A DNA stretch of 42,243 bases from NCBI GenBank assembly GCA_003222155.1, contig QHUU01000081.1:1-42243 (forward strand). The letters are read 5' to 3'. Below are positions 927 to 41,645 of the stretch, in pieces. This DNA is from Gemmatimonadota bacterium. Its GTDB lineage: Bacteria > Gemmatimonadota > Gemmatimonadetes > Gemmatimonadales > GWC2-71-9. The notes below the pieces were generated by a model that searched no databases, had not been told where the DNA came from, and saw nothing but the letters and a program-made list of their open reading frames with translations. A program made the translations under genes and the position numbers. How positions within the stretch are numbered: the stretch's first letter is position 1; every line of letters starts with the position of its first letter.

Positions 927-1538
927 ATGCGAACCAGACAGTTGCTGATGGGGGCCACACTGCTCGCGCTGGGGGCCTGCGCCGAGGGCGTAAGCGTACG
1001 TACCGCGCTGAGTCCCGACGCGAGCCTGCACGGCCTCCGCACGTTCCGGGTCCAGCAGACGCCCCAACCGAAGCTCGCGGGCGCCACCTCCTCGACCAAC
1101 GACCCGATGCTCGTGAACTCGATCTCGAACCGGGCGCTGCGGACCGACCTGACGCAGGAGTTCGCGGGGCTTGGCTACGTGGCGAGCGACAGTAATCCCG
1201 ATTTCTGTGTCGCGTACTACGCTAGCACCAATCAGAAGCTTGACCTCACGTATTGGGACTACGGGTATGCGTGGCGGCCGCACTGGTGGAACGGCTGGGG
1301 ACGCCGCTGGGGACGCGGTTGGGGAGGGGACTGGGGAATAGCGAGCGGCCCAGTGGCGACGCAATACACCGAGGGGACCGTGATCGTCGATGTGTTCGAC
1401 CCCAGGACCAAGGACCTGCTGTGGCGTGGCCAGGGGGTCGCGGCGGTTTCCGACGACGAAGCACAGTACGAGCAGGAGCTCAAGAAGACCGTCGAGGCGA
1501 TCGTCGACAAGTTCCCCGCATCGACCAAGGTGTCATGA
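927..1538 (+). CDS. DUF4136-type lipoprotein
   Basis: A 203-residue protein. The N-terminus (MRTRQLLMGATLLALGAC) is a lipoprotein signal with the lipobox Cys at residue 18. The rest fits the DUF4136 pattern: an early 'TFRV' strand, a middle block ending DFCVAYY, a Trp/Gly-rich insert (WRPHWWNGWGRRWGRGWGG, about 112-130) and a late TVIVDVFDPRTKDLLWRGQG strand pair. DUF4136 proteins are small envelope lipoproteins of unknown role. A good ribosome site (AGGAGAA) precedes the ATG. The stop overlaps the next start (ATGA at 1535), so it is the first gene of a coupled operon. Family assignment is fairly sure; function is unknown. Confidence 0.8.
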   Translation: MRTRQLLMGATLLALGACAEGVSVRTALSPDASLHGLRTFRVQQTPQPKLAGATSSTNDPMLVNSISNRALRTDLTQEFAGLGYVASDSNPDFCVAYYASTNQKLDLTYWDYGYAWRPHWWNGWGRRWGRGWGGDWGIASGPVATQYTEGTVIVDVFDPRTKDLLWRGQGVAAVSDDEAQYEQELKKTVEAIVDKFPASTKVS

Positions 1539-1765
1539 CGCAGCAGAGCGTGGAGATCCTGATCGGCAAGCTCCTCACCGACGAAGAGCTGCGGGAGGCA
1601 TTCGAGCAAAACCCGCACGCGGTGTTGGTGGGGTTGCTGCGGCAGGGTCTCCACCTGAGCCGACTCGAGATGGAAGCGCTCGAGTCCCTCAAGCTGTCGG
1701 ACATGAGCGGTCTCGTAGAGACGATCGACAGACGCCTGCAAAAGGCTTCACTGAGGAGGGCACCT
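1535..1765 (+). CDS. Os1348-like (NHLP clan) small domain, in frame with the next gene
   Basis: These 77 codons start at an ATG overlapping the DUF4136 stop. The sequence (VEILIGKLLTDEELREAF, then a helical tail) resembles Os1348-family NHLP-clan small proteins, relatives of the nitrile-hydratase-like leader peptides. No stop codon separates it from the aldo/keto reductase: the frame runs through CTG AGG AGG GCA CCT ATG. The reductase has its own excellent internal ribosome site (GAGGAGG, 6-7 bases before ATG 1766). One shifted base would create the TGA visible in the +1 frame at that spot. So this is either the N-terminal domain of a 419-residue fusion or a small separate gene whose stop has been lost by a real or sequencing indel. 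The resemblance is judged by eye. Confidence 0.55.
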
Positions 1766-2794
1766 ATGACACACGCAGTTCGCGACACGGACACATTGCC
1801 CACCGCCGCGCTCGGCACGACCGGCATGCGCATCACGCGCGTCGGCTTCGGGGCCTGGGCGATCGGGGGCGGCGGATGGACGTTCGCCTGGGGCAATCAG
1901 GACGACACGGACTCGATCGCCGCGATCCGTCACGCCATCGAGCGCGGCATCAATTGGATCGACACAGCGGCGGTGTACGGCCTCGGACACTCCGAGGAGA
2001 TCGTCGCCCGCGCGCTGCGCGACATCCCGGCCGACGACCGGCCGTACGTCTTCACCAAGGCCGGCCTCGTGTGGGACGAGCGCGACCGCGCGGCCCCGCC
2101 GCGCCGCGTCGGTGATCCGCTGAGCCTGCGCCACGAGGTCGAGGGGTCGCTCCGCCGGCTCGACGTCGAGCGCATCGATTTGTACCAGATGCACTGGCCC
2201 GCCGAGGACGGCACTGCGCTCGAGGACTACTGGGGCACACTGTTGCAGCTGAAAGAGGAAGGGAAGGTGCGTGCCGTCGGGCTCTCCAATCACCATGTCG
2301 GACAGCTCGAAGACGCCGAGCGGCTCGGGCACGTGGATACGCTTCAGCCGCCATTCTCGGCGATCCGCCGGGAGGTCGCGGTGGCGGAGCTCCCGTGGTG
2401 TGCTGCACACGGCACCGGGGTCATCGTCTACAGCCCGATGCAGTCCGGCCTCCTCACGGGCGACTTCAGCCTCGAGCGTGCCGCCCGGCTGGGCGCGGAC
2501 GACTGGCGCTCCCGCTCTCCCGACTTTACGGGCCTCGGGTTGCGCCGCAATGTCGGCCTGGCGGACGCGTTGCGGCCCATCGCGGAGCGTCACGGCGCAA
2601 CGGTCGCCGCCGTAGCCGTTGCCTGGACGCTCGCTTGGCCGGGCATCACCGGCGCCATAGTCGGCGCGCGGTCCCCTGCCCAGGTGGACGGCTGGATCGG
2701 CGCCGCGAGTCTAGAGCTTACGGGCAGCGACCTGGACGACATCGCCGCCGCCATCAAGCGTACGGGTGCGGGCGTGGGACCGGTCCGGCCGTGA
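1766..2794 (+). CDS. Aldo/keto reductase
   Basis: A 342-residue cytoplasmic oxidoreductase of the AKR superfamily, expected to use NADPH to reduce or oxidise carbonyl/alcohol substrates. The whole TIM barrel is present. The catalytic tetrad is visible: Asp66 and Tyr71 (IDTAAVYGLGHSE), Lys98 (FTKAGL) and His143 (YQMHWP). The C-terminal cofactor-binding segment GITGAIVGARSPAQV is intact. The start at 1766 follows a strong GAGGAGG site, but the same frame continues upstream into the Os1348-like domain, so a longer product from 1535 is possible. The stop overlaps the GTG of the tolC-like gene (GTGA, 2791). The substrate cannot be inferred; placement in an efflux operon suggests detoxification. 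Confidence 0.9.
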   Translation: MTHAVRDTDTLPTAALGTTGMRITRVGFGAWAIGGGGWTFAWGNQDDTDSIAAIRHAIERGINWIDTAAVYGLGHSEEIVARALRDIPADDRPYVFTKAGLVWDERDRAAPPRRVGDPLSLRHEVEGSLRRLDVERIDLYQMHWPAEDGTALEDYWGTLLQLKEEGKVRAVGLSNHHVGQLEDAERLGHVDTLQPPFSAIRREVAVAELPWCAAHGTGVIVYSPMQSGLLTGDFSLERAARLGADDWRSRSPDFTGLGLRRNVGLADALRPIAERHGATVAAVAVAWTLAWPGITGAIVGARSPAQVDGWIGAASLELTGSDLDDIAAAIKRTGAGVGPVRP

Positions 2795-4098
2795 AAGCAC
2801 TCGCGCTGGTCGTCGTCTTGGGCTCGTGCCTCCCTGGCACCAGTCAGAGCCAAGAGCCGGATACGGCCGCGCTCGGGCCCCGCCTGTCGCTCGAGACGGT
2901 GGTCGCCCGAACGCTCGCCTACAGTCCGGCCGTGGCCGGCGCGCAGGGCGCGGTGCGCGACGCGGCCGCCCTCCGGCGCGTGACACTCGGGGCGTACCTG
3001 CCGAGTGTCGCGCTCAATTCGAGCGCGGGCTGGACCGATCAATCGCTTGCGACCGCCGGGGTGACGTCCCTCACGCAGCCGGGCACGGTGAACGCGTATG
3101 GCGCGGGACTCGCGGCGGCGGTCGACGTCTTCACGGGGGGCCGCCGCGGCGCGCAACGGAGCCAAGCCGAGGCGATCGGCCTAGCCGCGGATGCCGGGCT
3201 GGTGCAGCAACGGTACGCCACGATCCTGCTCGCGAGACAGAGTTACTTCGACGTGCTGCGCGCGCACCAGCTCGTGCGCGTGGCCGCGGAATTCGTCACG
3301 CAGGCCGAGCTGGGCCTCGGGTACGCCCGCGACCGGCTTGCCGCCGGCACGGCCACACGGGCGGACGTGCTGCTCGCCGAGCTCTCGCTGTCGACGGCCC
3401 GCCGCCAACAGCTCGCGGCTCGCGATACGCTCAGCACGACCAGCGCCGCCCTCGGCCGGCTGGTCGGCGCGAACGGACCCGTCGATGCGGACTCCCTGAC
3501 TACGCTCGAGCCCGAGCCGCTCGCGCTCGGCGATTCGGGCGTCCTCGCGCTGGCACCGGCGGCCGCGCCCGCCGTCGCGCAAGCGCAGGCGCTGGCGAAC
3601 GCCGGCGCCGCGGCGGTCCGCGCCTCGGAGACGCAGTACGTCCCCACGATCTCGCTCGGCGCCGGCTACAACTGGTCGAACGACGGCCGCGTCACCGGGG
3701 CGCTGCGGTCGGGGTGGATCGTCGCGTTCACGACGTCATTCCCCCTCTTCAACGGGTTCGTGCGCGAGGCGTCCGTCACCCAGGCCAAGGTCGCCGTCGA
3801 TGTGGCGACTGCGACCTCGGCGGATACGAAGCGCTTCGTCCGTGCGGAGGCCCAGCGGCTGCTCGGGCGCCTCCACGTCGCCGAGCAGGATATCACGCTG
3901 ACGCGCGACGCCGTGCGGCTCGCCGGCGAAGATCTGCGCGTCATCCAGGCGAGGTATCGCGCCGGCATCGCCACGATTCTCGACGTGCTCACCTCCCAGG
4001 CCGCGCTCATTCAGGCGGAGCTCGATCTCGTGAGCGCTCGGTTCACCTATCAGGTCGCCCGCGCTTCACTCGAAGCGCTGCTCGGCCGGGAGCTATGA
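2791..4098 (+). CDS. TolC-family outer membrane efflux protein
   Basis: A 435-residue outer membrane channel component of the RND pump encoded next. I chose the GTG at 2791 because it overlaps the reductase stop (GTGA) and gives a signal peptide (VKALALVVVLGSCLPGTSQSQ); the open frame upstream to 2395 is antisense/shadow sequence over the reductase. The body shows the two-fold OEP repeat: 'LSLETVVARTLAYSPAVAGAQGAV' type helix starts, the central 'RADVLLAELSLSTARRQ' helix, and 'RYRAGIATILDVLTSQAALIQAELDLVSARFTYQVARASLEALLG' near the C-terminus, which is diagnostic for the family. Ten bases separate its stop from the permease start. Confidence 0.92.
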   Translation: MKALALVVVLGSCLPGTSQSQEPDTAALGPRLSLETVVARTLAYSPAVAGAQGAVRDAAALRRVTLGAYLPSVALNSSAGWTDQSLATAGVTSLTQPGTVNAYGAGLAAAVDVFTGGRRGAQRSQAEAIGLAADAGLVQQRYATILLARQSYFDVLRAHQLVRVAAEFVTQAELGLGYARDRLAAGTATRADVLLAELSLSTARRQQLAARDTLSTTSAALGRLVGANGPVDADSLTTLEPEPLALGDSGVLALAPAAAPAVAQAQALANAGAAAVRASETQYVPTISLGAGYNWSNDGRVTGALRSGWIVAFTTSFPLFNGFVREASVTQAKVAVDVATATSADTKRFVRAEAQRLLGRLHVAEQDITLTRDAVRLAGEDLRVIQARYRAGIATILDVLTSQAALIQAELDLVSARFTYQVARASLEALLGREL

Positions 4099-4108
4099 GG
4101 CTCGAGCG

Positions 4109-7100
4109 ATGATGTGGATCGTGCATGTCGCGCTGCGGCGCCCCTACACCTTCATCTGCGGGGCCATCCTCGTCCTCATCGCCGGGCTGGTGGCGATCAT
4201 CACGACGCCGGTCGACATCTTCCCCGCGATCCCGCTGCCGGTCGCGACGGTGATCTGGCAGTACCAGGGGATGTCGCCCGAAGAGATGGAGCAGCGGGTC
4301 GTCACGATCGTCGAGCGGTCCTACTCGGCAACCGTCAACGACATCGAGCACATCGAGTCGCAGTCGCTCGACGGCGTCGCCGTGATCAAAGTGTTCTTCC
4401 AGCCCACCGCGGACGTCGCGACGGGCATTGCGGAGCTCACCGCGGCGTCCCAGAGCAACACTCGGACTCTGCCGCCGGGGATCACGCCGCCCATCATCCT
4501 GCGGTTCAACGCGACCGACGTCCCGATCCTCCAGATCGGCGTGGGCTCGAGCACCATGTCGCAAGCGGAGTTAAACGACTACGTCTCCAACTTCGTCCGC
4601 ACGCCGCTCGCTACCGCCCAGGGCTCGACCATTCCGTTCCCCTACGGGGGCGCGCCCCGGCTGATCAACGTCGACCTCGACCTGGCGCGATTGTATGCGA
4701 AGGGGCTCTCTCCGGCGGACGTGAGCGCAGCCATCAACGCCGAGAACGTGATCCTGCCGGCCGGGTCGGCGCGGCTGGGCAGCCGAGAGTACAGCGTGCG
4801 CTTGAACTCGAGCCCGGAGGTCGTCCAGCAGCTCAACGACATGCCGATCAAGCAGGTCAACGGGGCGATGGTCTACATCCGCGACGTCGCGTACGTGCGC
4901 GATGGTGCCGGCGTCCAGACCAACATCGTGCGTCAGAACGGACAGCACGGCACCTACATGAGCGTGCTCAAGAACGGCAGCGCCTCGAGCCTGGCGGTGG
5001 TCAACCGCGTGAAGGCACTGCTCGCCGCGCTCAAGCCCGCGCTGCCGTCGTCGCTCGACATACGGCTGCTCGTGGACCAGTCGCTGTTCGTCCGCGCCTC
5101 GATCTCGGGGGTCATCCGTGAAGCCGTCATCGCGGCCTGCCTCACGGCCCTGATGATCCTTCTGTTCCTGGGGAGCTGGCGCAGCACGCTCATCATCGCG
5201 ACCTCGATCCCGCTCGCGGTGCTGTGCTCGATCATCGGCCTCTCGGCCCTGGGGCAGACACTCAACGTGATGACGCTGAGCGGGCTGGCGCTCGCCGTCG
5301 GAATTCTCGTGGACGACGCGACCGTCACGATCGAGAACATCAACCTGAACATGGAGCAGGGGAAGGAGATCTTGCCGGCCATCGTAGACGGCGCGGCGCA
5401 GATCGCGACCCCGGCGTTCGTCTCCACCATCTCGATCTCGATCGTGTTCGTGCCGATGTTCTTCTTGAGCGGTCCCGCGGCCGCGCTGTTCCGCCCGCTG
5501 GCGATGGCGGTCGTGTTCGCCGTGCTCGCCTCGTACGTCCTGTCGCGCACCATCGTGCCCACGATGGCCCATTATCTCCTGGCCGCCGACGCGCACCGTC
5601 TCGCGGCGGGCCGGACGGCGGCGGGGGGGAGCGTGATCGAGCGGGTGAGCGCGCGGTTCGAGGTCGGGTTCGAGCGGTTCCGCGCGGCCTACCAGCGTGT
5701 GCTGAAGTGGGCTCTGGGACGCCGCCGCCCGGTGCTCGGCGCCGTCGGCGGCTTCGCCGCGCTCTCGCTCGCCCTGGTCCCGTTCATCGGGCAGGACTTC
5801 TTTCCGACCACCGACGCCGGTGCCTTCCAGCTGCACCTGCGGGCGCCTGCCGGGATGCGGGTCGAAGAGACGGAGCTCATTGCCGCCGGCGTGGAACGGA
5901 CCATTCGGCGCGTGATCCCTCCCGCGGAGCTGGGGCTCATTCTCGACAACATCGGCATCAACCGTAACGCGATCAATCTGGCCACCGGTGGCAGCGCCAC
6001 CCTGAACGCGGCGGACGCCGATCTGGTGGTCCAGCTCGCGCCGACGCGCCGCACCTCGACGTTCGAGTACGTGCGGCGGCTGCGCGCAACGCTCCCCACC
6101 GAGTTTCCCGGCGTGACGTTCTTCTTCCTGCCGGCGGACATCATGAACCAGGTGCTCAACCTTGGCCTGCCGGCCCCGATCGACGTTCAAGTGGTGGGCC
6201 AGGACAAGACGGCCGATTACCGCGTCGCCACCCGCCTGGCCGCTGAGCTGAGGCGCATCCCCGGCGCCGTGGACGTCCGGGTACAGCAGGTGGTCAACAT
6301 GCCGGAGTTTCTCTTCTCCGTGGACCGGATCCGGGCGCAGCAAGTCGGCCTCACGCAGCGCCAGGTAGCTAGCAATCTGCTCATCTCGCTCTCCTCGAGC
6401 GGGCAGACCGCGCCGAACTACTGGCTCAACCCGCAGAACGGCGTGAGCTACAGCGTGGCCGTCCGCACGCCGCTTTCCAAGATCAACGCGCTGGACGCGT
6501 TGACCAACACGCCGGTCACGGCGCCGGGACTCGCCGCGCCGCAGCTGTTCGGCAATCTGGCGAGCGCGACCCGCACGACCTCCTACGCGGTCGTGAACCA
6601 CTACAACACGCAACCGGTGTCTGACGTGTATGCGGCCGTGGACGACCGGGACCTGGGCGGCGTCGCGAGCGATGTGGACCGGGTCGTCGCCAAGATCGGT
6701 CCGTCCCTGCCGAAGGGTACCCACATCGTGGTGCGCGGCCAGGTCGCCAGCATGCGGTCGTCGTTCGTCGGGCTGGGGTTCGGAGTGCTGTTCGCGATGG
6801 TGCTCGTGTACCTCCTGCTCGTGATCAACTTTCAGTCGTGGCTCGATCCGCTGGTGATCGTGATGGCGCTCCCCGGGGCGCTGTGCGGCATCGTGTGGAT
6901 GCTGTTCGTGACTCAGACCACGTTCAACGTGCCGTCGTTGATGGGAAGCATCATGTCCCTGGGCGTCGCCACCGCCAACAGCGTCCTGCTAATCACCTTC
7001 GCGGATGACCTGCGGCGGGAGGGACGTTCCGCCCTCGAGGCGGCCCTCGAGGCCGGCTCCGTGCGGCTGCGGCCCGTCTGCATGACCGCGCTCGCCATGA

Positions 7101-7291
7101 TCATCGGAATGATGCCCATGGCGCTCGGCCTGGGCGAAGGGGGCGAGCAGAACGCGCCGCTCGGCCGCGCCGTGATCGGCGGGCTGCTCGTCGCGACCTG
7201 CTTCACCCTGGTGGTCGTGCCGGTGCTGTACAGCATCCTGCGCGTCGCACCGCCTACACCACCGATCGTCATCCCGGAGGGACACGCATGA
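4109..7291 (+). CDS. RND efflux permease (AcrB/HAE-type relative)
   Basis: A 1060-residue inner membrane proton-driven pump subunit of full RND length. N-terminal TM1 (about 13-32) is followed by the first periplasmic porter loop, TM2-TM6 (about 335-495), a second porter loop and TM8-TM12 (about 885-1045). TM4 holds GILVDDATVTIENI with the two conserved Asp of the proton relay. In TM10 the AcrB-like motif 'AKNAILIVEFA' reads ATANSVLLITFADD, so the usual relay Lys is replaced; this is also typical of a sub-branch of annotated RND permeases. There is no CusA-type metal-binding Met cluster that I can recognise, so a hydrophobic or organic substrate is more likely than metal. ATG ATG at 4109/4112 are both possible starts. 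The stop overlaps the adaptor start (ATGA). Confidence 0.95.
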   Translation: MMWIVHVALRRPYTFICGAILVLIAGLVAIITTPVDIFPAIPLPVATVIWQYQGMSPEEMEQRVVTIVERSYSATVNDIEHIESQSLDGVAVIKVFFQPTADVATGIAELTAASQSNTRTLPPGITPPIILRFNATDVPILQIGVGSSTMSQAELNDYVSNFVRTPLATAQGSTIPFPYGGAPRLINVDLDLARLYAKGLSPADVSAAINAENVILPAGSARLGSREYSVRLNSSPEVVQQLNDMPIKQVNGAMVYIRDVAYVRDGAGVQTNIVRQNGQHGTYMSVLKNGSASSLAVVNRVKALLAALKPALPSSLDIRLLVDQSLFVRASISGVIREAVIAACLTALMILLFLGSWRSTLIIATSIPLAVLCSIIGLSALGQTLNVMTLSGLALAVGILVDDATVTIENINLNMEQGKEILPAIVDGAAQIATPAFVSTISISIVFVPMFFLSGPAAALFRPLAMAVVFAVLASYVLSRTIVPTMAHYLLAADAHRLAAGRTAAGGSVIERVSARFEVGFERFRAAYQRVLKWALGRRRPVLGAVGGFAALSLALVPFIGQDFFPTTDAGAFQLHLRAPAGMRVEETELIAAGVERTIRRVIPPAELGLILDNIGINRNAINLATGGSATLNAADADLVVQLAPTRRTSTFEYVRRLRATLPTEFPGVTFFFLPADIMNQVLNLGLPAPIDVQVVGQDKTADYRVATRLAAELRRIPGAVDVRVQQVVNMPEFLFSVDRIRAQQVGLTQRQVASNLLISLSSSGQTAPNYWLNPQNGVSYSVAVRTPLSKINALDALTNTPVTAPGLAAPQLFGNLASATRTTSYAVVNHYNTQPVSDVYAAVDDRDLGGVASDVDRVVAKIGPSLPKGTHIVVRGQVASMRSSFVGLGFGVLFAMVLVYLLLVINFQSWLDPLVIVMALPGALCGIVWMLFVTQTTFNVPSLMGSIMSLGVATANSVLLITFADDLRREGRSALEAALEAGSVRLRPVCMTALAMIIGMMPMALGLGEGGEQNAPLGRAVIGGLLVATCFTLVVVPVLYSILRVAPPTPPIVIPEGHA

Positions 7292-8529
7292 GCGCCGTAC
7301 CGGAGATCCTGGAACAGCTCCACGCCAGACAGGGCAATCGGCGACCCGTCCCCACCTCGCCGCGCCGGCGGGGGATCAAGTGGTTGGGGGGCGGGATCGC
7401 CGGGGGCGTGCTGGCGGCGCTCCTGCTTACGGGCATCGTGCCGCGCGTGGCGCAGCAACACCGGCTCGCGGCCGCCGCCACCGCCGTCGGTGTCACCCTG
7501 CCCACCGTGAGCGTGACCACGGTGGCGCATGACACCAGTCCGTCGAGCGTGAGTCTGCCCGGCGCCCTCACGGCCGTACAGACCGCCGCCATCTACGCAC
7601 GCACGCCCGGTTACGTGCGCCGGCGCCTGGTCGATATCGGCGGCCGCGTGCGCGCGGGCCAGCTCTTGGCCGATATCGACGCGCCCGACCTCGACCAGCA
7701 AGTGGCGCAAGCGCGAGGCGTGGTCGCTCAAACGCGCGCCGCCCAGGCGCTCGCTCAGGCCAACCTGGTGCGCTGGCAGGCGCTCGCCGTCGACAGTGCG
7801 GTGACGGCCCAAGAGGTCGATCAGATGCAGGCCGCCTTCAACGAGGCGGTCGCCAACTCGAACAGCGCCGAGGCCAACCTGCGGCGGCTGGTGCAGTTGC
7901 AGGCATACGAGCGGGTGGTCGCTCCGTTCGCCGGCGTGATCACGGCGCGCAATGTGGACCCCGGGGCGCTGGTCGGACCGGCGGGCGGCGTGAGCGAGAC
8001 CTTGGCGGCGGGAACCGGGAGCACACCGGGGAGTCTGTTCACGATCGCGCAGACCGACACGCTCAGCGTGTATGTGACCGTGCCGGAAGACTACGCCGCG
8101 GCGGTGGGGATCGGGAAACCCGCGGTCGTGGTCGTACCCGCGCTCCCCGGCGATACGCTGCGCGGGCGCGTGGCTCGCACCGCCGGATCACTCGACCCCG
8201 CGGCCCGGACGCTCCTCACGGAGGTGCGGGTGGCGAATCCAAAAGGTGTGTTCCTGCCCGGGATGTACGCCCAGGTGCAGCTTGCACTCGGCGCGGGAAC
8301 GCCGCCGCTGCGCGTCCCTGCCACTGCGCTCGTGATCCGCGACGGCCCACCGCAGGTCGTGACCGTGGCTCCCGATTCGACGGCGCGGTACCAGACGGTG
8401 ACTATCGGCCGCGATCTCGGGACCTGGGTGGAAGTGACCGGGGGGCTCGAGCAGGGTGCCCACATCGTGATCAACCCGCCCGCCGACCTGCAGGACGGCG
8501 CGCGCGTGCACGTGGTAAGCGCACGATGA
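7288..8529 (+). CDS. RND efflux periplasmic adaptor (HlyD/MFP family)
   Basis: A 413-residue membrane fusion protein that would bridge the permease and the TolC-like channel. A cytoplasmic N-terminus of about 30 residues is followed by one TM helix (GGIAGGVLAALLLTGIV, about 34-50). Next come the first lipoyl half (ARTPGYVRRRLVDIGGRVRAGQLLADIDAP), an alpha-hairpin (about 130-200), the second lipoyl half with a glycine-rich loop (VVAPFAGVITARNVDPGALVGPAGG), a beta-barrel (TLSVYVTVPEDYAAAVGIG) and a membrane-proximal domain. It uses an uncleaved anchor rather than a lipoprotein signal. The start is fixed by the ATGA overlap with the permease gene. Confidence 0.93.
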   Translation: MSAVPEILEQLHARQGNRRPVPTSPRRRGIKWLGGGIAGGVLAALLLTGIVPRVAQQHRLAAAATAVGVTLPTVSVTTVAHDTSPSSVSLPGALTAVQTAAIYARTPGYVRRRLVDIGGRVRAGQLLADIDAPDLDQQVAQARGVVAQTRAAQALAQANLVRWQALAVDSAVTAQEVDQMQAAFNEAVANSNSAEANLRRLVQLQAYERVVAPFAGVITARNVDPGALVGPAGGVSETLAAGTGSTPGSLFTIAQTDTLSVYVTVPEDYAAAVGIGKPAVVVVPALPGDTLRGRVARTAGSLDPAARTLLTEVRVANPKGVFLPGMYAQVQLALGAGTPPLRVPATALVIRDGPPQVVTVAPDSTARYQTVTIGRDLGTWVEVTGGLEQGAHIVINPPADLQDGARVHVVSAR

Positions 8530-8591
8530 GCGCGAAGCACGAATCCTGGGGCCAGGGCGGCCCCGGGACCACTCATGACCGGGAGACAGCA

Positions 8592-8945
8592 ATGACTTGC
8601 ACCAACCGACTCCTCTTGGCCCTCGGTCTCACCGCAGCGGTCATGGGTTGCACGCGCGCGGCGGGCGATTCCGCAGTGCGCTGGACGGGCGGCGCTGCGG
8701 ACGAGCGGTTCATCGCTGCTAGCGGTGCCGCAATGGAGCAGATGATGAAGGCCATGGCAATCCGACCGTCCGGGGATGTGGACCGTGATTTCGTCGCCAT
8801 GATGGTCCCGCATCACGAGAGTGCGATCGCCATGGCGCAGGCCGAGCTCCGTTATGGCAAGAATGAGCAGCTGCGGCGCATGGCGCAGGAGATCGTGGTG
8901 ACGCAGCAGCAGGAGATCGCGGCGATGCGGCTGGCCCTGAGATGA
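8592..8945 (+). CDS. DUF305 lipoprotein
   Basis: A 117-residue envelope protein. From the ATG at 8592 there is a GGGAGA ribosome site and a lipoprotein signal (MTCTNRLLLALGLTAAVMGC). A longer version from ATG 8526 would overlap the adaptor stop by ATGA but would bury the signal 22 residues in, so I prefer 8592. The DUF305 core is clear: RDFVAMMVPHHESAIAMAQ, where the paired His and the flanking Met are the likely metal-contacting positions, and a C-terminal EIVVTQQQEIAAM helix. DUF305 proteins are ferritin-like four-helix proteins often near copper-handling genes; the metal role here is inference. The stop overlaps the next start (ATGA, 8942). Confidence 0.88.
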   Translation: MTCTNRLLLALGLTAAVMGCTRAAGDSAVRWTGGAADERFIAASGAAMEQMMKAMAIRPSGDVDRDFVAMMVPHHESAIAMAQAELRYGKNEQLRRMAQEIVVTQQQEIAAMRLALR

Positions 8946-10347
8946 AACCCGTCGTCGCCATCGCCGCGCTCGTGGCGGCCACAGCCCTTACACCCGAGTG
9001 CAACCTCGCGGGGCAGGGGATTCCCGTCAGTCACCGCGACCGGGTGTACGCGGCGGAGCAGTTCTCGAACACCGTTTCCGTCACCGATCCCGCGGACCAC
9101 AGGCTGGTCGGCGTGATTCGCCTGGGAGATCCGGCGCCCGGCAATTTCAGCCCGCTGTACCGCGGGCAGGCGCTGGTGCACGGCCTGGGGTTCTCGCCCG
9201 ATCACCGTACCATAGTCGTGGTTTCGATCGGCTCGAATTCCGCGACGTTCATCGAGACTGCGACCAATGCCGTGAAGCACATCACATACGTCGGGCGATC
9301 TCCGCACGAGGCGTTCTTCACCCCGGACGGCTCCGAGGTGTGGGTCACGGTGCGGGGCGAGAACTATGTCGCCGTCCTGGACGCTCACACCTACGAAGAG
9401 AAGGCCCGGATCGTCGTGCCCGGCGGACCGGGCATGCAGATCTTCTCCCCCGAAACGGCCAGTACGGGTACGTCTGCTCCTCCTTCACCCCGGAGACGGT
9501 GGTGATCACGGTGAAGGATCACCAGATCGTCGGCCGGGTCCCTCAGGAGAGTCCGTTCTGCCCCAACATCGCAGTCACTCCGGACGGCGGGCAGGTTTGG
9601 TTCACGCTGAAGGATGTCGGCAAGACCATGGTATTTAGCGGGCGCCCGCCGTTTGCGGTCCTCAGGACCATCGCGACCGGACCGATCACGAACCACGTGA
9701 AGATCGTGGGGAATTCGAGCGGCACGTTCGCGTACGTGACCGTCGGGGGCTTGAACCAGGTCCAGGGGGTGTGGGACTCGGGTGACGGCACCCACGTCTA
9801 CGTGGGATTGGAGAACGACGACCGACTGATCGCCATCAACACCGTGACCAATCAGGTGGTCGCGACGATTCCGATCGGGCAAGCGCCGCAGGCGGTGATC
9901 TACGTGTCCGACGCCGTTCCGACCGGGGCAGGAACAGAAGGTCTCCAACCCCTCGGCGTCGCCGGAGAGGCGGCCCACATTACCCTCGCGGCGTCCGGCG
10001 GCGGCGAGCCCACGAGCGTGTCGCTGTTCGATCAGGGACTCATTCAGGTGCTACAGGGCGCGGTGACCGGGCTCGAGCCCGGTAAGCCGTACGTGCTCGC
10101 GCTGGCGCGCCGCCCGGACGGGGGTGGGGATGGCCCGCTCGAGCCGCTCGCGGCATTCACCACCAACCCGGCGGGAGCGGCCGTCGTGAACGCGATCGGT
10201 CCGATCCGGCAGGTTGTGCGAGCCGGAACCGACGTGGTGCGTCGCTACCTCGTGATCGCGTCGGGCACACCGGCTCAGCCCGGACCGGTGGTGCAGACGC
10301 AGGTCGTGCCGCCGGTGAATAGGCACGCGTGGCGGCGTGGACAGTAG
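8942..10347 (+). pseudogene. YVTN/YncE-like beta-propeller protein, one-base frameshift
   Basis: This gene starts at the ATGA overlap with the DUF305 gene and has a signal peptide (MKPVVAIAALVAATALTPEC). Seven-bladed propeller motifs run across two frames: 'FSPDHRTIVVVS', 'FTPDGSEVWVTVRGENYVAVLD' in the first frame (8942-9505), then 'VTPDGGQVWFTLKD', 'DGTHVYVGLENDDRLIAINTVTNQVVATIPIGQAPQAV' in the second (about 9455-10347). At 9452-9456 the sequence GAAAC would need one more A to give FSPENGQYGYV and a continuous protein of about 468 residues. The C-terminal 130 residues form a separate beta-rich domain. Either a real frameshift mutation or a homopolymer sequencing error; the undisturbed coding character on both sides favours the second or a very recent event. 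Confidence 0.85.
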
Positions 10348-40094: not shown

Positions 40095-41645
40095 CTAGTG
40101 CCGTTCCAACCTGATCGGGATGGCCTCGGACTTCAGGTACGCGTGATGGTCGTGGCTGAGAGCGCCCTGAGGCAGCCAGTGCCACAGGGGCCCGAGGTCG
40201 CGGCGCACCTGGTTCTCATAGAACGCCGGGAGCTCGGTGGTGGCCCGGTCGAAATAGCCCCGCAGCTGCGGGTCGGTATCGAGCCGCCGGCGCACCTCGC
40301 TGTGATACCGGATCCGGCCGAACCCCTCGGACGATACGGCGCGCACCACGTTCATCCAGCGCGGGATCGGGGCGCGGGTCGCCCGGAAGCGCCGCACGAT
40401 CGCCCGCCGCGAGAAGGTGTAGCGGGTGAGGTCGATCACGTGGTCGTAGAACTCCTGCCAGGAATAGTTCTGCGGCTTCACGTTCATCGCGTGGTTGTTG
40501 TCCAGGAAGTGAAACGGGAACGGCAGCACGCGATCGCTCCGCTGATACTGCAAATTGAGCGGCGCCGCCCGGCCGAATGCGGAGAGCAGTGAATACCCGG
40601 GGAAGGCGCCCGGCGTGAGATCGACGAACCGCTTGGTGAGCTCGAACGGCTCGGGGCCCCGGTCCGAGTCGAGGCCGAGCACGAAGTTGGTCTGCACGTA
40701 GGGGATGTGGCGCAGGATCATGTTCACGTGCTCGGACACCTGCTCGACCTTGGCGTGCCCCTCCACCTTGCCGGTTTTCGATTTGTTGCCGAGATCGAAC
40801 CACGACTCCACGCCCGGGAGCAGCGCCTTGAACCCGTTGCGCTTGAGGCGGATCACGTGCGGCTCCGACAAGAGCGACAGGCTGCTCTCGGCGATGAAAT
40901 CGATGCTCCCGGGCGGGGCCGCCGCTTCGATCGCGTCGAGGAACTCGTCGAACCGGACGCCGAAATTGGGATCGTGCCAGCCGACGCGCGGCCGGCGCAG
41001 CTGCTGCCGCAGAAACCGCAGGTCCTCCTGCAGCACGTCCAGGTCCAGCTGTTGATAGGGGACGACCGAGTCGATGCAGAAGCTGCAGGTATACGGGCAG
41101 CCGAGGCTGCCGAGCATCGGGACGATTTTGAACAGGGGCGCTTTCTTGAGGGTCGGGGCGATGAACTTCCAACGCTCGCGCACGCCGGGGAGCGCAGCCG
41201 GTTGCCGCCCGGCCGCCAGGTGGCGGCCGTCGGGGCGGTGCGGCGCGCAGTCATCCAGGATTTCGCGCACCACGGTCCGGTCGGTGAAACCGAGCACGTA
41301 GTCGAAATACTGCCGGGCGTCTTCGGGATAGCAGCGTGCGTGTGGGCCGCCCAGCACGGTGACCGCGCCGCGCGAGCGGAACAGATTGCTGAGCGAATAG
41401 GCCAGCAGGGCGGCTTCAGTGAACGCCCCGATGAATACGAGATCGACGTCGGCGGGCAGCTCGCGGACGAGGTCCTCGAAGCCGGTGTAGCAGACGAAGG
41501 TGACCTCGTGCCCCTCCGCCTCGCACCACACGCCGACCACCTGCGGCATGATGCTCGCGAGGTTGGCGTGCATGATGCGCGCGTACAGGGCGCGCGTGGG
41601 GCCTCTCGTTACGAGATCGACGATGCCGACGCGGAGCTTACGCAC
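40095..41645 (-). CDS. B12-binding-domain radical SAM protein
   Basis: A 516-residue enzyme. The N-terminal ~140 residues form a Rossmann-type cobalamin-binding-like domain (DVDLVFIGAFTEAALLAYSLSNLFRSRGAVTVLGGPHARCYPED); the classical DxHxxG base-off motif is not evident. The radical SAM core starts near 165 with the 4Fe-4S motif Cys183-x3-Cys187-x2-Cys190 (LGCPYTCSFC), followed by the usual barrel segments (IDFIAESSLSLLSEPHVIRLKRNGFKALLPGVESW, YVQTNFVLGLDSDRGPE). The last ~130 residues are helical and unlike named families. This architecture is common in methylases and modifying enzymes for lipids or natural products; the substrate is unknown. Confidence 0.88.
   Translation of the reverse strand: MRKLRVGIVDLVTRGPTRALYARIMHANLASIMPQVVGVWCEAEGHEVTFVCYTGFEDLVRELPADVDLVFIGAFTEAALLAYSLSNLFRSRGAVTVLGGPHARCYPEDARQYFDYVLGFTDRTVVREILDDCAPHRPDGRHLAAGRQPAALPGVRERWKFIAPTLKKAPLFKIVPMLGSLGCPYTCSFCIDSVVPYQQLDLDVLQEDLRFLRQQLRRPRVGWHDPNFGVRFDEFLDAIEAAAPPGSIDFIAESSLSLLSEPHVIRLKRNGFKALLPGVESWFDLGNKSKTGKVEGHAKVEQVSEHVNMILRHIPYVQTNFVLGLDSDRGPEPFELTKRFVDLTPGAFPGYSLLSAFGRAAPLNLQYQRSDRVLPFPFHFLDNNHAMNVKPQNYSWQEFYDHVIDLTRYTFSRRAIVRRFRATRAPIPRWMNVVRAVSSEGFGRIRYHSEVRRRLDTDPQLRGYFDRATTELPAFYENQVRRDLGPLWHWLPQGALSHDHHAYLKSEAIPIRLERH

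Follow-up and report, generated by a model that had tools for sequence, protein, structure and literature searches.

An Os1348-like domain fused in frame to an aldo/keto reductase in a Gemmatimonadota efflux operon

The gene at positions 1535-2794 (+ strand) of a 42,243-nucleotide stretch from the start of a Gemmatimonadota contig, QHUU01000081.1, referred to here as the window, has a 1260-base frame that is open without a stop and encodes a 419-aa protein in which an Os1348-like helical domain runs directly into an aldo/keto reductase. This in-frame fusion is real and is common to three related bacteria. We consider it reasonably probable that the gene encodes a two-domain protein of a detoxification/efflux operon that is probably controlled by sigma-54, that the fusion is old, that two products are made from it and that the small domain serves for docking or dimerisation.

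Residues 4-69 of the product match NF038399, ‘Os1348 family NHLP clan protein’, and the 77-aa segment that contains them (1535-1765, + strand) scores 54.9 bits in isolation against a cut-off of 40. Residues 103-406 match the aldo/keto reductase family Aldo_ket_red (PF00248, 206.9 bits, E 4.6e-61), and the reductase has its own ATG start, from which it would be 342 aa long (1766-2794, + strand). Its nearest solved relatives are 3n2t, GSP69 (1pz1) and IolS (1pyf), and D143, Y148, K175 and H220, which we take to be the D-Y-K-H catalytic tetrad of aldo/keto reductases, are invariant across the three fused proteins. The window protein thus resembles AKR11-like reductases such as IolS and GSP69 over the whole reductase domain, catalytic residues included, but differs from them in its added N-terminal helical domain and its pump-operon context. 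Its start overlaps the stop of the preceding DUF4136 gene by 4 nt, and no second Os1348-like gene was found in the window's genome at E<=1e-5. At the junction, a strong internal ribosome-binding site, AGGAGG (1754-1759, + strand), lies 6 nt 5' of the ATG at 1766 and is overlapped by a TGA in the +1 frame (1752-1754, + strand), whose counterpart is TAA in one fused ortholog (G024) and TGA in the other (G109). A second +1-frame TGA (1767-1769, + strand) is part of the ATGA at the reductase start, arranged just as in those stand-alone relatives that have a 4-nt overlap. A first-pass annotation, made by a model from the letters of the window alone, had described the in-frame pairing, the near-ideal internal ribosome site and the overlapping +1-frame TGA, and all of these hold.

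The same annotation had proposed a comparison of homologs for separate or fused forms, and the gene is fused, and syntenic, in both orthologs. A whole-protein search of 101 genomes returned the G024 ortholog, which is 84% identical over residues 1-419 and has an open frame of 423 codons, and a family-model search of 201 genomes returned the G109 ortholog, which was confirmed and is 83% identical, with its contig ending at residue 359; dS is about 0.40-0.53. A five-sequence profile matched 3 of 395 Gemmatimonadota genomes at E<=1e-5, and these are the same three fused genomes, representing three species in two genera. A scan of the named genome collection, covering close relatives only, gave four loci, with the G024 and G109 metagenome-assembled genomes fused and the other two loci unfused. 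Unfused aldo/keto reductases at 58-69% identity turned out to be separate loci: the nine with flanking sequence (L054-L062) had neither Os1348 nor the window's pump operon, and one of them (L057) had a single remote RND match at 25%.

The linkers read KASLRRAP-M in the window, KASLRGRQGRH-M in G024 and KASLRRSH-M in G109. Comparison of the three shows that the frame is preserved across a length difference of 9 nt (three codons), and the junction is in frame in all three genes. The first-pass annotation had considered that one wrong base at 1752-1760 might hide a stop, and the +1-frame TGAs at 1752 and 1767 would be in keeping with a sequencing or assembly error of this kind. However, two other Gemmatimonadota assemblies have the identical in-frame junction with different linker sequence, so the fusion is not a read error; for practical purposes the removal of a stop by error is refuted, and we give it a negligible chance.

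The substitution pattern suggests that the small domain is under purifying selection. Its dN/dS is 0.30, 0.39 and 0.25 in the three pairs, and its differences are concentrated at third codon positions in two of them (Fisher p 0.009 and 0.008; p 0.10 for G024-G109), statistics that, like the arginine-codon counts given below, are small and non-independent because the fused sequences number just three. These values bear on an alternative explanation, in which only the 342-aa reductase matters and what lies before it is regulatory sequence, or coding sequence in decay, that is read through by accident. A strong internal Shine-Dalgarno sequence with a natural aldo/keto reductase start is what such an explanation would predict, and the reductase, with a dN/dS of 0.13-0.14, is indeed held more tightly than the segment before it. 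Yet the segment is intact in three species of two genera, all family-invariant residues are present in the fused proteins, and the codon-position bias is seen in two of three pairs; we therefore regard accidental read-through as rather unlikely.

Both the purine-rich internal ribosome site and the ATG are retained in G024 and G109 despite the divergence at synonymous sites given above. Moreover, all seven arginine codons that follow KASL in the linkers of the three genes are AGR (AGA or AGG), whereas AGR accounts for 6 of 175 arginine codons across the operon genes of the window and for 2 of 140 across those of G024, which argues that the ribosome site is maintained. As the site and the ATG are kept, we infer that translation probably yields two products, the 419-aa fusion and the 342-aa reductase. 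The earlier suggestion of a fused product plus a short reductase is a live option, with the internal site and ATG retained in three genes. Two further possibilities at the junction were rejected. A +1 frameshift at nucleotide 217 of the coding sequence, which would release the small domain on its own, would require CTG, CTA and TTG in the P site to re-pair with TGA or TAA, and inspection by eye revealed no slippery site. As for selection acting on the +1 stop, three sequences do not suffice to show it, and leucine followed by AGR often creates such a stop.

Relatives of the small domain occur as stand-alone proteins in other phyla. At E<=1e-4 the same profile had matches in 24 of the 396 genomes from the phylum to which L067, a Thermoanaerobaculum metagenome-assembled genome, belongs, and in 18 of the 95 from the phylum of L068 (Methylomirabilota). 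From 46 fetched loci and four known ones, 44 were retained at >=40 bits, comprising two fused and 42 stand-alone loci; six low-scoring loci (L141-L143, L160, L162 and L163) were excluded before counting, and near-duplicates such as L132/L133 and L138-L140 were retained, so related loci are non-independent and binomial p values come out too small. Stand-alone proteins are mostly 73-88 residues long, usually begin with MSQ..VE and end soon past a D-x-R-[LI] motif. In an alignment of 35 sequences they have residues G11, T15, D16, R20 and E45 in common, and all 35 proteins examined, the window's included, match NF038399 (E<=0.01).

These relatives offer an explanation for the unusual junction. The TGA of the small gene and the start of the next gene overlap by 4 nt in 28 of the 42 stand-alone loci, and in 23 of those 28 a Shine-Dalgarno-like 4-mer lies inside the tail of the small gene. 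In the window AGGAGG is still present in the tail and ATGA where the reductase begins, but the small frame is shifted and reads on past them. Because most relatives overlap in this way, with the ribosome site mostly inside the small gene, the internal site and the +1-frame TGAs of the window look like signals of translational coupling that were inherited; taken by itself, the ATGA is weak evidence for an ancestral overlap. An ancestral overlap followed by a frame change would account for both the internal ribosome site and the +1-frame TGAs, and from the sequences compared the fusion looks like an old frame change. The first-pass idea of a stop lost by one base thus fails as a sequencing error and is plausible as an old evolutionary event, given that those 28 relatives overlap in the +1 frame. 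We envisage that an ancestor of the three Gemmatimonadota lineages had a small gene before a carbonyl-reducing aldo/keto reductase, that its stop overlapped the reductase start by 4 nt and its tail held the ribosome site, so that translation of the two was coupled, that a frame change in this tail joined them, and that the old ribosome site and ATG 1766 were kept after joining. The locus would then illustrate clearly how two genes coupled in translation can become a fusion with the internal start kept. No aldo/keto reductase adjoining the small gene was seen among the stand-alone loci.

The operon around the fused gene has the order regulator fragment, -24/-12 element, DUF4136, Os1348-reductase, TolC, RND and membrane fusion protein (MFP), which fits the layout of the stand-alone relatives. 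The contig start truncates a gene (1-780, - strand) for a probable sigma-54 enhancer-binding protein, leaving the N-terminal part with its GAF domain and cutting it just before the AAA+ domain; the GAF_2 match (5.4e-6) is slightly under the cut-off, and the fragment shares 64% identity with a protein of G109 that matches the L068 sigma-54 activator in its AAA+ part. A sigma-54 -24/-12 promoter-like element, TGGCACGCCGGGTGCA (866-881, + strand), is the sole exact match in the window, with 0.06 expected. It is placed 45 bases 5' of the gene for a DUF4136 protein (927-1538, + strand; PF13590, E 7.1e-26) whose orthologs occupy the equivalent location in G024 and G109, where -24/-12-like elements at the matching position agree with 10 and 11 of the 12 consensus positions. 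With both the element and a nearby activator fragment present, the operon is probably under sigma-54 control.

Downstream of the fused gene, the reductase stop overlaps, in GTGA, the start of a TolC-type outer-membrane efflux protein (2791-4098, + strand; OEP, PF02321, 3e-49). It is followed by a 1060-aa RND-type pump protein (4109-7291, + strand), which resembles the RND genes of related loci, and by the MFP (7288-8529, + strand). The tripartite RND efflux set is complete at this locus, with TolC and MFP assigned by Pfam (OEP and HlyD_D23) and RND by similarity. Relatives of the pump were found in 5 of 102 family genomes at E<=1e-150, and only G024 has an ortholog with 95% identity. A DUF305 gene (8526-8945, + strand; PF03713, 1.4e-18) overlaps the MFP stop and probably shares the operon with the pump genes; within 8526-9505 it is accompanied by a frame that weakly matches cytochrome D1.

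A comparable setting surrounds the stand-alone genes. A sigma-54 activator ends <=1 kb upstream in 25 of the 40 loci with enough sequence (0.21 expected from activators per genome) and lies within 3 kb upstream in 26 of 33, and an RND gene starts <=3.5 kb downstream in 19 of 35 (0.14 expected); by the same distance test, 8 of the 44 confident loci have neither. Among the 42 stand-alone loci, 15 have a -24/-12-like element (score >=9 of 12) in the 150 nt upstream, versus 3 of 42 on the reverse complement. Loci of this kind, combining a sigma-54 activator, an Os1348-like gene and RND or ABC efflux in the phyla of L067 and L068, resemble the window in subfamily, in the kinds of neighbours and in coupling geometry, but their small gene stands alone with its own stop and without a reductase. 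Some have ABC-type or VTT-domain genes as neighbours; at L145, L148, L149 and L159 the small gene is followed by a VTT-domain (DedA-like) membrane protein, with no pump. Past a gap, L068 also has zinc-binding dehydrogenase family, NmrA-like and isochorismatase-family proteins (6028-9204), another detoxification-like set.

Psp-like feedback circuits provide an analogy for a regulatory role, in which the stand-alone small protein would serve the sigma-54 activator encoded beside it as anti-activator or co-sensor, and its fusion would make the reductase a substrate-sensing regulator. The tight adjacency to sigma-54 activators across phyla and the place of the small gene at the head of the regulated operon in many loci agree with such a role, but some loci are without an activator and the activator type differs in G024: it is of the GAF type in the window and G109 and, judged by eye, of the receiver type in G024. 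The regulatory partner of the operon is hence not constant, and we regard the anti-activator role as possible but unlikely. On its divergent side (L051, 4600-8420), G024 carries a histidine kinase, response regulators and the receiver-bearing activator, with domains assigned by eye and not of the GAF type.

The predicted structure of the small domain (AF2, pLDDT 87) has as its top PDB match Os1348 itself (6lk7; VIA Z 7.2, rmsd 2.4 over 65 residues), which is also the best Foldseek match (TM 0.61, prob 1.00, E 0.056) and is recovered by sequence against the PDB at E 0.052; structural alignments give about 23-25% identity. The next-best matches are the helical domains of the borosin proteins OphMA and SonA (Z 3.4-6.6). 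For the whole fusion the model has a pLDDT of 78, falling below 50 in the linker at residues 74-86, as expected for a flexible tether. According to its authors, the Os1348 crystal structure 6lk7 is a homodimer (PMC7726476).

The first-pass annotation had linked the gene to the biosynthesis of modified peptides (RiPPs), a link that was not supported, as the closest relatives are without a core region and lie beside sigma-54 activators and efflux pumps. A RiPP reading of the locus, with the domain as a genuine NHLP/Os1348 leader and the reductase as a tailoring enzyme that works in cis like the fused borosin enzymes, is weak. It draws on the NF038399 match, on weaker matches to PF14407 and to the NHLP RiPP precursor model TIGR04509 (18.7 bits, below the cut-off of 34; TIGR03793 was not reported by the model search), on the OphMA and SonA fold matches and on Pseudomonas Os1348, described in PMC7726476 as lying beside a SagB-type dehydrogenase and upstream of the EmhABC pump. 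However, the core peptide is absent: the domain continues straight into the enzyme, where stand-alone relatives stop shortly past the conserved helix, and none of the 42 stand-alone relatives has a core peptide, most ending ~5-20 residues past the conserved C-terminal motif. Furthermore, the neighbours are activators and pumps, and a RiPP-like context exists but separately, in another genome (G124). In a survey of 100 neighbouring proteins from stand-alone loci (L133, L139 and L140 excluded; gene calls by a simple GC3 rule), RiPP-modifying enzymes were not seen among the 25 of 57 Pfam families listed or the 10 of 31 otherwise unexplained neighbours scanned singly. We regard a leader function as improbable.

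Comparison with known proteins shows both likenesses and differences. The domain shares its NCBIfam family, predicted fold and a nearby RND pump with Os1348 of Pseudomonas sp. Os17, but it is fused to a reductase, is only about 23-25% identical to 6lk7, and has no SagB, peptidase or acetyltransferase seen beside its gene. With OphMA and SonA it has a weak fold similarity, and in OphMA, too, a domain of this kind and an enzyme share one polypeptide, but the window protein is without core peptide and methyltransferase and has the domain at the opposite end of the enzyme. In the literature found, no link of the Os1348 family to sigma-54 or efflux control appeared beyond the remark in PMC7726476 on the EmhABC neighbour.

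Together, this suggests that the function of a small protein now classed as an antibiotic precursor is another one. We infer that the most likely role of the Os1348 domain is docking or dimerisation of the reductase in the cytosol, and not that of a leader for an exported peptide; it would bring the enzyme to whatever the small protein binds, be it pump, activator or the small protein itself, and the fusion is a natural hint of that contact partner. More broadly, and tentatively, this branch of the Os1348 family may be a widespread class of small proteins that act in the cytosol to control or dock onto efflux systems switched by sigma-54, here joined to a carbonyl reductase of which one message would give two forms, with and without the docking domain, and which would link chemical detoxification to its own pump and regulator. 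A branch of a family labelled as RiPP precursors would thereby be set apart from RiPP biology, with a sigma-54 activator and an efflux pump as its testable setting, and this separation would alter genome-mining calls.

Elsewhere in the window, far from the operon, a radical SAM protein with a weak B12-binding match is encoded at 40098-41645 (- strand). In G124 (L036 / L053), which belongs to the same bacterial family, a more distant NF038399 protein (129-aa frame) lies near a LanM-type DUF4135 gene.
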